64,000 bases of DNA, taken from NCBI GenBank assembly GCA_030248295.1, contig JASANH010000484.1:218330-282329 (forward strand), read 5' to 3'. The translations under genes were made by a program, and so were the position numbers. Below, piece by piece: positions 17,558 to 22,302 of this stretch; position 1 is the stretch's first letter; each line of letters opens with the position of its first letter. The stretch comes from Mesodorylaimus sp. YZB2_4 (Eukaryota; Nematoda; Enoplea; Dorylaimida; Dorylaimidae). Below the pieces are notes generated by a model. It searched no databases and was not told where the DNA came from. It saw only the letters and a list, made by a program, of their open reading frames with translations.

Positions 17558-20500
17558 CTATCGCAACCGTTCTCGCACACTGGCTAATTGCACAATGGGC
17601 AGCATGAGCTTTAACGCCTCCTGCACGTAGCCGACGCTGTTGCTGGCTTCGTAGAACACGTTGGTCAGCATACGACCGACCGCGTCGGGGTCCTCGGAAT
17701 CATCAGAGGCCGTATTCAGAGCCGTCGTGTAACGAGCACTCAAAAGGGACAGTTCGTCCGCCAGTGTGCTGGTTATGCTGAAAGTCAGGTCATGTCAGGC
17801 GCAGCCCGTCACCATAGTCACTCGCACTACTCACCTGACCAACGATCGCACTGCCAACGTGTCCCCGCCATCCACCACAACGGCTGACATGGCGTTCGGT
17901 ATCAAGAGCAGCTGACCCAGTTTGTGATACATTTCCACACCAGCCGCCGTGAAAGTGGCCAGGGTGCTCATGCACTTCTCGTAGATCTCCTGCAAAGACT
18001 AGCATGTGCACCTGTCCTAGCCATTCGAATGTTTGCAGCACCCTCGAATGCAGCAAACCCAGTAGTGGCTATGCTCACTTTACCAAAGTCATGGCACCGT
18101 ACTGGTCAATACATAATGACCACACGGCAATTTGAGCACTTTGGCCTGACAGTCGATCAAACCAAACCACCCATGGCATACCTGTGCATCGACTCGAGTC
18201 CCCTTATCCTGCTCCGCGATTCGCTGGCCAATCCAAGTCCTGGCCTCGTCGTCCAATGAGACCAGGCGACTAGGCACGAAAGACGTGAATTTCAGATCTC
18301 GCTTCAGTGACAGTGCCAAATTTTGTTCCGTTGGTTCCTCGTCTACAAAAGGGCAGATTCTTGACTAGGTTCTTCCAACCTACAGTATAAGGGACCGATA
18401 CAGATTTAATTTTGCTTTGTGCGCAAGCATGGCCATTTTTGGCAGTCTCTGACTCTCCCGCAAAATTCAAAAACTGGTGGCTGCCTGATTTTACTGAACT
18501 CTCCCAAGCGGCAAAGAGCGCGAATTAAAAAGGGAGATATCAAGCCTTTTTATTTTTTAAACTCCGCCTCCTTGAGTGGCCGTTTTTGCCTTGAGCTAGC
18601 CAGCAGTCAAACCGTCGAGCGGTCAAACGAGCCTGTGAGGGGACGGGCCACGTCAGCTTCCATCTCTGTGTCTGCACTAGACCCATCTCCACATAAGGGC
18701 ATCCCGGGCTGGACACCGGCTTCCCCACACGATGACAATCCGATCATACGGCCCCCTTCATCTACTACAGGACTTGCACGCACCTACTGGGTCCTCGCGA
18801 GGGTTGCAACTGGCTTCAGTCATTCCTGGACATTACTCAGGGTACATTCCCAAGACATGGTGCCACCGACTCCTACCGTCAGTTGCCCACACACCCCATC
18901 AACTCCATATTCCTCAAACACTTACCAATATTATTCTTTCCCTCCACCGCGTCAAACAGCGACTTCAAATTCTCCATCGAAGTGGCAACTTCCTCGACTT
19001 GATCAGGCGTTAGCAATTCCATCAAACTACGCGTCTGCTGGCAGCACGTCGTCGACAGCAACTCCAACGCCTCCAGGTGCACCAATCCTAAACCAGTGGA
19101 GCCTGTACTTCCTCCTCGACCCCTTCACCCTTCAATTTCTCTCACCTTGGGCATCTTCAAACAAGGCAGCATAATTGCACCGCCTGGCCTCGGCTTCCTG
19201 TTGCTTCTGTTTCGCGTCCGCTTCCGCTTTCTCCTTTAACTCGCGCAGTGCTTGAGACAGGGTGGCCTTCTCAGATCGATTGGCTGGGCTTGGAATTGGA
19301 ATTGGAATTTTCAAACGACGTCGTTGATTTTCACCAGACTGCTCTGAAACGGTCACAGTTTCGAACGTCTTCCTTCCCAACGTTTCCAGAACGTCCAACG
19401 AGCCAGACACGATCGTCCTTCCCTAAAAATGGAGGCACCGAATCAGCAAATAAACAGCCGAGAGTGATCACTTACGGTATTCTCGAAAAGGTGAGAAACG
19501 CCTGAAATCAAGGATGCAAATCCTTGATCTCGTTTTCCCGCAATGTCTGCCCGATGACCCTTCGCTTCATCGGACTGATAACCAGACGACAGCTGCTCTT
19601 CCTTGTCGCTCCGATTCGTGGCTGTATCACTTCCGCCTGCAAACAGAACAGGTCTCATTTGCAGATAGCGCGTGTCTTCAGTAATCCCCTTGCCTTGCTG
19701 GCTACTAGCCCATGACAATAGCGAAACCCCACTCGCCCACGATTAATGATAGGCTTGTGTTCGTGTCTCACCCACCACCACACTCATGTTTTAACAGACT
19801 TCGCAACCTGATACCTTGACCATTCACATAGCCACCGCAGTGACAGTGAGTGCAATAGGTGTACGTATGGCCCTTGGAGAAGTTATGTGGTTGCCTTCAT
19901 TACCCTCTTGATCCGGTCCAGGCGAGGCAGCAACCCGTCGAATTGATGTTTCTGGCTGTTGAACGTGAGAGCGATCAACGAAGGCAGCACAACACTACCT
20001 TCTAGTAACACTGACAACCCTGAGCCAGTGCTCGCCACCATTCCTGCAGCTAACGATAAGACCCCACCCACTTAACTCACCTCACGTAACCTCACTCCAA
20101 CCGAAGTGACCACGACCTCCCGCAACACCCTAACTCGCAAATGAGAGGACACTAGAGAAACCCAAGATCTTGACGGAGATTAGGAGTGCACATTACCCTT
20201 CGGGAAAGCTAATCACCAGAGTGACGCCCATCAGCTCTATGGTCCAACCCATCTCCTCTGCCTCCTCACCGAAATACAGACCAGTGCCTATGATGCAGAG
20301 CAGTTACATAGCCAGAAGTGCTTCCCTCGGTGATCGGGTCTCTGAGGACGGCCGCAGAATGGTCATGTTAATGTTAGACTGGTCTTTACTAGAGTAAGGG
20401 TCGATGCTCTAATTATGGTTTGCGGAAAGTTCGTCCCCCACATTTTTCGTCCCCCACAATTCGTCCCTGCACAGTTCGTCCCCGAGTAGTTTCGTCCCCC

Positions 20501-22302
20501 GCTGTTTCGCCCCCCCCCTTTCCTTCCCCAGAAAATTTTTTGTATTAATTGTCAAGGAAATCGTAGCATTACCCTTATCATAGCAATACAAATATTGTCC
20601 TCAAGAATACGCAAGATATATGTAGAATATAAGGCAAGATACTCAGAACTCGAAATTGTATGCGATACCCCTTACAGCTACATCGGCATGAGCTTCACCT
20701 GCAACAGTGGCAATGATCTGTTGTGGTTTCTCATGCGTTGCGGTTGCTCGTTCTTTTATTTCATCGATCATTCGATGTCGACGCATTCGAAGATCTGGTC
20801 GAGAACGCAGATTTCCCAGATGATGCACGCCCAATCGCCAATTATTCCGAGTACACCTACATCGGACGAAGGTTGCGACGTGGACGAAAAGACCCGCAGT
20901 TCCCTATCGCTCTATGGGATGTTCATCAACGCACACTGGACGGCCAACATCGCACAAACAACGAGGTGGAGGGATGGCACCGTGGATTTCAAGAAACGTG
21001 TGGTGCGATATTTCCGAATATCTACAGATTTATCGACGCTCTCAGAAGTCAGCAAGGCGTTCATAATTACGAAATCGTTCATATGATCGCTGGTAACCCA
21101 GGCAATCTGAGGAATAACAAATACGCTGCTATTTCGGCTAGAGTCGAACGGACTTGTGAGGACTTCGATAATAGAAATGTGATCGATTTTGTTAGAGGTA
21201 TCGCATACAATTTGAGTATCTTGCCTTATATTCTACATATATCATTGCGTATTCTTGAGGACAATATTTGTATTGCTATGATGAGGGTAATGCTACGATT
21301 TCCTTGACAATAAATACAAAAATTTTTCTGGGGACGAAATATGAGGGGACGGAACAGCGGGGACGAAACTACTCGGGGACGAACTGTGCAGGGACGAATT
21401 GTGGGGGACGAAATGTGGGGGACGAACTTTCCGTATGCCCTAATTATGGATCTTATACAGAGTGCCTATTCAGACCTGCGACCCCTACCAATGATAAATC
21501 TCCGGCTCGGACAGCATGTTACATCCCATACACCCTCTACTTACCTTCAGAGGACACCTCCTCCGACGCCGAATCACAATCATCCTTTTCTCCCGTCGGT
21601 GCCGGCTCTTTCACTTGATCAGCTTTCTTCCTCAACGCATCGCGTTCTTGGGACGACAGCTTCACTAGTTCTTCGGGCGTCGGCGCCCCCAGCGTGGTCT
21701 CGACCGTTTCCAGCACGCTCGTAAAACTTTCGCCTGCAAGAGTAAAACATAGCTACGGGTACACCCCAAACCCATGTTCGAATCGAAATGACCTTACCAA
21801 CAGTATTGGTCAGCGTGTTGATGGAATCCGTCGCCAGCGACAGCAGCTGATGGCCCCAACCACCCCACAGGGACGATGGTTTCTGAACATTGGCCATCGC
21901 CCCATCGTCCATCGTCGGCGGCACTTGCGGGAATGGCGGGGGTCTTTCACAGGACGGCGTGGCCATAACTTCCACATCCGACTCCCCACCTCCATGATCA
22001 TCATCCGTCGCATCCCAATCGTCAAGATCCCATCCATCGGCCCCCGCCTCTTCCACCTTCGTTTCCTTACCTTGCACAGATTGAGCGACGACTGCAACCT
22101 GCTTCTCAGGCAACGCATGGACGGGTCGTGGAGATTCTACTTCAACGGCTGCACTTTGTGCGGGTGGACTTTCCTCCTTGGCATCTGGCGATCGATCTTC
22201 CACCAGGTCGGGCTCATCACCTTCATCCGCACTATGGAATGCCGCTTCCTCATCGTCATCCTCGTCCATGGTCAAGACACGCTTCTGCTTCGAAGTAGAC
22301 AT
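17558..22302 (-). CDS. FAM114A2: FAM114A family protein (609 aa)
   Basis: The family (FAM114A1/NOXP20 and FAM114A2) comprises cytosolic, Golgi-associated proteins reported to bind Rab2. Eight exons on minus: 21798-22302, 21545-21733, 19476-19636, 19146-19422, 18926-19087, 18182-18342, 17835-17989, 17558-17777; 1830 nt in frame. The N-terminus is acidic and disordered with a WDLDDWD patch, followed by SLWGGWGHQLLSLATDS, the family's WGxWG start. Then SGSLDVLETLGRKTFE and LSQALRELKEKAEADAK, then LVHLEALELLSTTC, and a C-terminal helical part ending YVQEALKLMLPIVQLA. I cannot tell A1 from A2; an invertebrate usually has a single copy, so the symbol is only indicative. Intron 2 (19637-21544, 1.9 kb) carries the MULE element, antisense to the gene; exon joining is unaffected. 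Confidence 0.85.
20418..20672 (+). repeat. left terminal inverted repeat of the MULE
   Basis: Outer part is built of spaced TTCGTCCCC words; the inner part holds AAATCGTAGCATTACCC and ATATTGTCCTCAAGAATACG. It matches the right repeat almost base for base in reverse complement, apart from an 8 bp insertion near 20645 and a C-run near 20510. Confidence 0.92.
20723..21307 (+). pseudogene. MULE transposase C-terminal fragment
   Basis: An open frame with DPQFPIALWDVHQRT, RTNNEVEGWHRGFQ and FPNIYRFIDALRSQQ. This is the region that follows the catalytic core in animal MULE transposases, where RTNN..E.W and P.I..FI are typical. The start shown is just the frame limit, and the end runs into the right inverted repeat. 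There is no zinc finger or DDE core, so it is a remnant. Confidence 0.8.
21195..21439 (-). repeat. right terminal inverted repeat of the MULE
   Basis: Reverse complement of the left repeat. It carries the same series of GGGGACGAA words, ending ACTTTCCGTATGCC beside the target duplication. Confidence 0.92.

Follow-up and report, generated by a model that had tools for sequence, protein, structure and literature searches.

Structure of the element

The 64-kb window analysed here, a stretch of contig JASANH010000484.1 of the nematode Mesodorylaimus sp. YZB2_4, carries within an intron of a FAM114-type gene an element spanning 20417/20418-21439, which lies between two copies of CTAATTATG and consists of two long inverted arms around fragments of a transposase. 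An initial annotation of this stretch had described it as a Mutator-like element (MULE) that is non-autonomous and inserted with a target duplication, and this description was borne out by the CTAATTATG flanks and by homology to relatives carrying FLYWCH and MULE domains. The parts of the element are given below; residue numbers refer to the transposase of the relative L035 (469 residues, with one stop read as X), which was used as the reference, and C48 designates a second rearranged copy in the same genome.

20409..20417, plus strand: left target-site duplication CTAATTATG, or 8 bp (CTAATTAT) when the G at 20417 is counted with the element
20417..20423, plus strand: end motif GGTTTGC, a type that canonical copies have at their 3′ end
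20418..20676, plus strand: left arm, with the terminal array, the 3′ untranslated region (3′UTR) and the last codons of the transposase (RGIAYNFEF), in antisense
20430..20520, plus strand: left array of six TCGYCCC words with a spacing of 14-16 bp
20670..20681: junction of residue ~108 with residue ~461, shared in position with C48, where one base differs
20676..20774, minus strand: transposase fragment, residues 76-108, 54.5% identical to L035
20764..20781: head-to-head junction of the N-terminal and C-terminal fragments, tested with a probe
20777..21214, plus strand: C-terminal transposase fragment, residues 322-467, 65.8% identical to L035
21190..21439, plus strand: right arm, with the last codons, the 3′UTR and the terminal array
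21433..21439, minus strand: end motif GGCATAC (GTATGCC on the plus strand), a type that canonical copies have at their 5′ end
21440..21448, plus strand: right target-site duplication CTAATTATG

The arm-to-arm alignment extended over 255 columns at 90.2% identity, with mismatches in 13 columns and gaps in 12, so that the inverted repeats do have the ~250 bp initially assigned to them but are similar rather than near-identical. That the arms are built of repeated words was confirmed, as each of the nine exact TTCGTCCCC words in the window falls inside the two arms, whereas 100 shuffles held 0.45 words on average and never more than 3. Using the looser word TCGYCCC, spacings of 16, 14, 15, 16 and 15 were found in the left arm and of 14, 14, 15, 16 and 29 in the right arm, and 2000 shuffles of the left arm gave a mean of 0.1 and a maximum of 2 words versus the 6 observed. 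These repeated words are plausible as putative transposase binding sites. The inner half of each arm is made up of the transposase 3′UTR and last codons.

The length of the target duplication depends on how the left end is read, as the ninth base, a G, can be assigned to either the target or the element: the duplication is 8 bp (CTAATTAT) with the left end GGTTTGC, which is the family's end motif, and 9 bp with GTTTGC. It is because of these two possible left ends that the window element scored 8/8 in a strict 8-bp frame and 2/9 in a strict 9-bp frame. Thus, of the 9 bp duplication annotated at the outset, CTAATTATG is indeed present on both sides, but strictly 8 bp remain when the family's end motif is respected, and either length falls within the 8-11 bp by which MULE target-site duplications are recognized. 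The outermost 7-bp motifs of the element are swapped relative to the direction of its C-terminal remnant. Just outside the left duplication, ATGCT (20404-20408) resembles ATGCC (21435-21439) at the right end of the element, a likeness that stretches the direct repeat to 15 bp with 1 mismatch and is probably due to chance.

The C-terminal fragment, with RTNNEVEGWHRGFQ in its region, is surrounded by a stop-free frame of 196 codons (20717-21307). The initial annotation had recognized only a transposase C-terminus inside the element; residues 322-467 with RTNNEVEGWHRGFQ are present as it said, but residues 76-108 on the minus strand had been overlooked. The window copy carries neither the FLYWCH nor the MULE domain, and of the regions around the three catalytic acidic residues its frame presumably retains just that of the last one; we take it, judging from the sequence, to be without the capacity for a working transposase. 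In the relatives, the MULE transposase domain PF10551 scored above the cut-off in L035, L037 and L034 (three of three tested) and in L043, the FLYWCH domain PF04500 was likewise found above the Pfam cut-off, and L035 carries both domains. A search of solved structures returned two matches only (E 0.061), both methyltransferases, which were taken as chance.

Copies of the family in the genome

The nematode's own genome (145 Mb in 1067 contigs) was searched with the whole element, which yielded at least 112 matches. The closest among the matches listed was C48 (90% over most of the length), and C80, C396, C155, C173, C386, C21, C44 and C175 hold parts of the C-terminal half and the right arm at 86-92%. 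Past transposition of the family is suggested by its dispersed copies with distinct flanks. With at most 2 mismatches allowed, an end pattern of 17 bases was matched at 82 places (39 forward and 43 reverse) versus 22 for the reversed control, which indicates that the ends recur well above chance, most of the two-mismatch matches not being proven ends; the expectation that other copies with the same termini exist in the genome was thereby supported.

Fourteen independent end pairs were then chosen by eye for scoring. They do not form a full census, since 14 further candidate places of the end pattern were left out; L015, L016, L017, L019, L021, L027, L028, L080 and L081 were kept out of the count for having no second end and L014 for having no end, and copies sharing flanks were merged, namely those on C735 and C199 into one and those on C30 and C189 into one. 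Strict 9-bp duplications (at least 7/9) were present in 8/14 own end pairs versus 0/182 cross pairs, and in 12/14 versus 4/182 when one base of slack and any length from 8 to 10 were allowed, C4 (L077) and C80 (L010) showing no duplication even with slack. Across the pairs, a 7-bp motif is followed by GGAAAG or a similar core and then by the words, the core motif having been used to find the pairs and hence not being independent evidence. In 9/10 arms examined, the cut edge and the start of the first word are 14-16 bp apart; the main spacing between words is 14-16 bp, and the arrays hold 3-8 exact words. By eye, a GGTTTGC-like motif at one end and a GG[C/G]ATAC-like motif at the other were found in 13 of the 14 pairs, the left end of C43 (L076) being unclear. 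At 9 of 11 subfamily loci, scored by eye with L014, L019, L027 and L028 left out, the GGTTTGC-like end lies on the 3′ side of the transposase, and the two swapped loci are the window element and C48.

No full-length copy of the element's own subfamily was found using two DNA probes from fuller copies and a protein search in which the best 150 of 245 candidates were scored, so that one may have been missed. The most complete own-subfamily copy is C80, which comprises residues 167-469 with stops present and residues 1-166 absent. Accordingly, the full-length partner predicted to exist elsewhere was not found with the same termini, C80 coming nearest, but related families with fuller transposases do occur. 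No relatives were found in one scan of viral contigs.

Some copies lie in larger duplicated structures. L022 (C735:13500-23400) is a large inverted repeat with 3.9-kb arms of 95.6% identity and one deletion-derivative copy per arm, and this deletion derivative is also present twice on C199. L025 (C189) and L026 (C30) have the same flanking bases and share the duplicated target word GTCCACGAC, with a mutation in one of its four copies, and from these sequences they are probably a segmental duplication of one insertion.

A rearranged 3′ end and its second copy

The element was read on the minus strand so that its ends stand in canonical order. In this direction, the 5′-type end and a terminal array are followed by the 3′UTR and the C-terminal coding part, both inverted and reaching as far as residue 322, then by residues 76-108 in sense, and finally by residues 461-469, the 3′UTR, the array and the 3′-type end. 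In canonical copies, the match between the two ends covers 135 bp (80%) in C80, 138 bp (83%) in C396, 80 bp (91%) in C155, 131 bp (77%) in L018 and only 40-44 bp in C173. Since the 3′ end is present twice in the window element and the canonical ends match over shorter stretches, the 250-bp arms are a by-product and not a native repeat.

A 151-bp probe across the head-to-head junction gave 18 matches in all, and the only ones from end to end were those at the window and at C48 (98%). Both inner junctions of C48 are at the same places as in the window element, and the flanks of the two copies differ. The same junctions in other flanks indicate that the rearranged form probably had a single origin and has since moved one or more times, and the simplest history compatible with these sequences would be a single rearrangement and, after it, one or more further transpositions in trans. 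Template switching during repair or replication would explain the duplicated inverted 3′ end; as the sequence shared at each junction amounts to only ~1 bp, with a TCGAATG word close by on both partners, this step is an inference.

Divergence among the copies was calculated over 137 codons (136 for C386). The coding remnant of the window differs from four sister copies by 19-26 differences per pair over 408-411 bases, with synonymous divergence (dS) of 0.059-0.096 and a ratio of nonsynonymous to synonymous divergence (dN/dS) of 0.50-0.76. The deletion copies C396, C80, C155 and C386 gave dN/dS values of 0.96-2.21 among each other, in keeping with neutral decay once the remainder of the gene had been lost. 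The junction stretch of the window differs from that of C48 by 2%. All these divergence figures are relative and give no absolute age, and because the element is a DNA transposon, the similarity of its arms gives no insertion age. Recent activity, which had been proposed from the similar termini, and a recent insertion may both be real but are not established by these data, in which other copies are 86-92% identical overall and the arm similarity is undated.

Origin of the element

Collectively, these results make it very probable that the element is a non-autonomous fold-back derivative of a FLYWCH and MULE Mutator-like transposon of Tm1-like build, formed once by a copying jump and then moved in trans. 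Copying, either during gap repair after excision or by fork switching, would on one occasion have left the 5′ terminal array for its inverted 3′ counterpart, run along the 3′ end inwards to about residue 322, and from there switched twice, first to residue 76 and next to residue 461. These switches would have lengthened the apparent terminal repeat and left a product retaining one 5′-type and one 3′-type end, which could have been mobilised by the transposase of another copy; the intronic insertion would now be evolving as largely neutral debris. Several observations weigh against this history. The open reading frame of the window matched no Pfam family (0 matches), so that the family assignment rests on homology to fuller copies; the target duplication of C48 reaches only 7/9; the two sites carrying the rearranged form are few; and the junction sequence, compatible with template switching, is not specific to it. 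Moreover, the dN/dS below 1 of the window, calculated from few changes, may reflect older selection on the gene.

Other origins were weighed against the same evidence. A plain internal-deletion derivative of a transposon with native ~250 bp terminal repeats, as pictured in the initial annotation, would show long inverted arms, a target duplication and an internal C-terminal remnant, and all of these are present; however, the ends of the canonical C80, C396 and C155 match over only 80-138 bp, the inner arm halves are transposase 3′UTR and last codons, and the interior contains an antisense N-terminal fragment, so that this origin is largely refuted and very improbable. Two copies inserted head-to-head or nested, fused by a later deletion and then moved as one unit, would also yield two inverted 3′ halves with one 5′-type and one 3′-type end, and copies can be close to each other, as in L020, where a transposase fragment and a separate end pair are ~1 kb apart. 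Such a fusion requires two insertions plus deletions that happen to spare one end of each type, and no inner end is present in the window element, in which, beyond the outer ends (0 mismatches), the two matches with 3 mismatches are array words; we therefore consider a fusion unlikely.

It is hardly credible that the open frame is a domesticated gene fragment or a regulatory piece for the host gene. The frame runs for 196 codons without a stop, it is open in the four deletion copies too, and the dN/dS of the window versus the deletion copies is 0.50-0.76, all of which domestication would explain; but dN/dS is near or above 1 among the deletion copies themselves, and the frame enters the terminal repeat, has no Pfam match and is antisense to the host gene.

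Sister families and candidate autonomous partners

A young sister family of seven loci comprises L037, L042, L043 and L045, which are 97.9-99.2% identical over ~1.9-2.0 kb, L044 (95-97% identical to these four), L038 (95-98% over the matching part) and L041 (96-99% in the 3′ half and 88-94% in the 5′ part). Perfect 9-bp duplications were found in 5/7 of these loci and an 8/9 duplication in L038, and none was found at L037. Six of the seven copies start with GGCATTCGGACAC, the start of L037 being changed, and the words after the start are of the TTCGTCCCCGCC type in all, with one changed base in the first word of L041. Stop-free frames of 208 and 337 codons are present in L037, L042, L043 and L044, the second frame of L045 having 293 codons; the 208- and 337-codon frames are probably one gene with a short intron. 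L037 was the only copy whose first frame was examined, and Pfam detected FLYWCH in it; MULE was detected in the second frames of L037 and L043. L042 (C5) has a perfect 9-bp duplication, CTGTAATAC, its 3′ word array is wholly missing near oriented position 2060-2085, and its 3′ end is reduced to ~10-15 bp; the array may be either dispensable for transposition or lost after the insertion.

In another family (L034, L035, L039 and L040) the words are CTCGCCCCC. Perfect 9-bp duplications were seen by eye in two of its four members (L034 and L040), the flanks of L039 mismatch, and the 3′ end of L035 was looked for and not found. The transposases of the young and the CTCGCCCCC families are ~63-66% identical to the window remnant, and on sequence grounds these sister families are the nearest candidate autonomous partners. 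The same end layout is common to several FLYWCH-MULE families in this genome, whose words differ (TTCGTCCCC-CACA, TTCGTCCCC-GCC and CTCGCCCCC), and within each family both ends use one word. A distant MULE group (C26, C87, C104, C393, C254 and C660; 43-44% identical), with seven stop-free 483-codon frames among the matches listed, is perhaps another young family.

Host gene and insertion site

The two stretches of host exon flanking the element are as follows.

21548..21741, minus strand: exon on the upstream side of the intron, from the FAM114-type gene, with DUF719 and with limits set by eye
19135..19422, minus strand: exon sequence on the downstream side of the intron, with DUF719 at 59.4 bits

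The upstream DUF719 match (21537-21752; 22.8 bits) is barely above the cut-off of 22.4, and three further pieces tested gave no match. The presence of DUF719 on both sides, on the minus strand, places the element inside an intron of a FAM114-type gene, which upholds the intronic location initially given as intron 2 of FAM114A, the number 2 being plausible only. The remnant frame runs antisense to the host gene. A search of the assembly with the left flank (window 19900-20417) revealed no haplotig or paralogous empty site: the only full match was the flank itself, and 11 others were 40-57 bp pieces of a dispersed repeat at the flank start. For the host gene, the element looks like ordinary intronic debris.

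Relation to known systems

The closest known system is Tm1 of root-knot nematodes. It is described as a Mutator/Foldback element of the Phantom subclass, with 9-bp duplications, asymmetric 7-bp end motifs outside the inverted repeat and then GGA, variable arrays of 13-15 bp words, a FLYWCH and MULE transposase (496 aa in Tm1-A), and non-autonomous copies without an intact transposase (PMC3169594). On that description, the window family shares with Tm1 the duplication, the asymmetric 7-bp motifs, the GGA core, the ~14-bp words and the non-autonomous copies, and its fuller copies share the FLYWCH and MULE transposase (469 residues in L035 versus 496 aa in Tm1-A). It differs in its word and end-motif sequences, the words here being TCGYCCC, and the head-to-head transposase fragments of the window copy are unlike Tm1 as described in PMC3169594. 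Phantom elements are listed with target-site duplications of 8-10 bp, terminal inverted repeats of 18-613 bp and FLYWCH in some members (Table 1, PMC6446971). The FLYWCH and MULE combination of the Phantom MULEs of animals is present in L035 and, with FLYWCH in one frame and MULE in the next, in L037, and from this domain layout we infer Phantom membership of the window family.

Galileo, of the P superfamily, is described as having fold-back-like long terminal inverted repeats with multiple transposase-binding sites, but it belongs to a different transposase superfamily. The Drosophila Foldback element FB4 has NOF as its partner. The long repetitive inverted repeats are a likeness of the window element to FB4, whose repeats, at ~700 bp, are unlike it in length. 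FB4 is reported to have 9-10 bp duplications, ~700-bp repetitive terminal inverted repeats and frequent rearrangement, for which template switching was proposed, and its placing with the MULEs was deemed more likely (PMC8277862). Ways in which plant MULEs acquire extra terminal repeats have been discussed (PMC3310237), and a survey of arthropod MULEs gives terminal inverted repeats of 13-1193 bp (PMC13359780).

The general design of the element is thus already known from root-knot nematodes and fruit flies, and the new detail is a legible fold-back rearrangement together with its second copy; head-to-head MULE derivatives may nevertheless have been published before, as no literature search was directed at them alone. 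The origin of the odd, variable inverted ends of fold-back elements has been discussed but is hard to catch; here, one genome holds canonical copies, the rearranged form and a second rearranged copy, so that the rearrangement can be read base by base. It is conceivable, and we offer it as a tentative idea, that these families represent a natural series: the FLYWCH domain would evolve together with the tandem word it binds, and fold-back derivatives such as the window element would lengthen their arrays by copying from the opposite end and be mobilised by the transposase of a sister family. With a young sister family that has the same end layout, the idea that the words are FLYWCH binding sites becomes testable.

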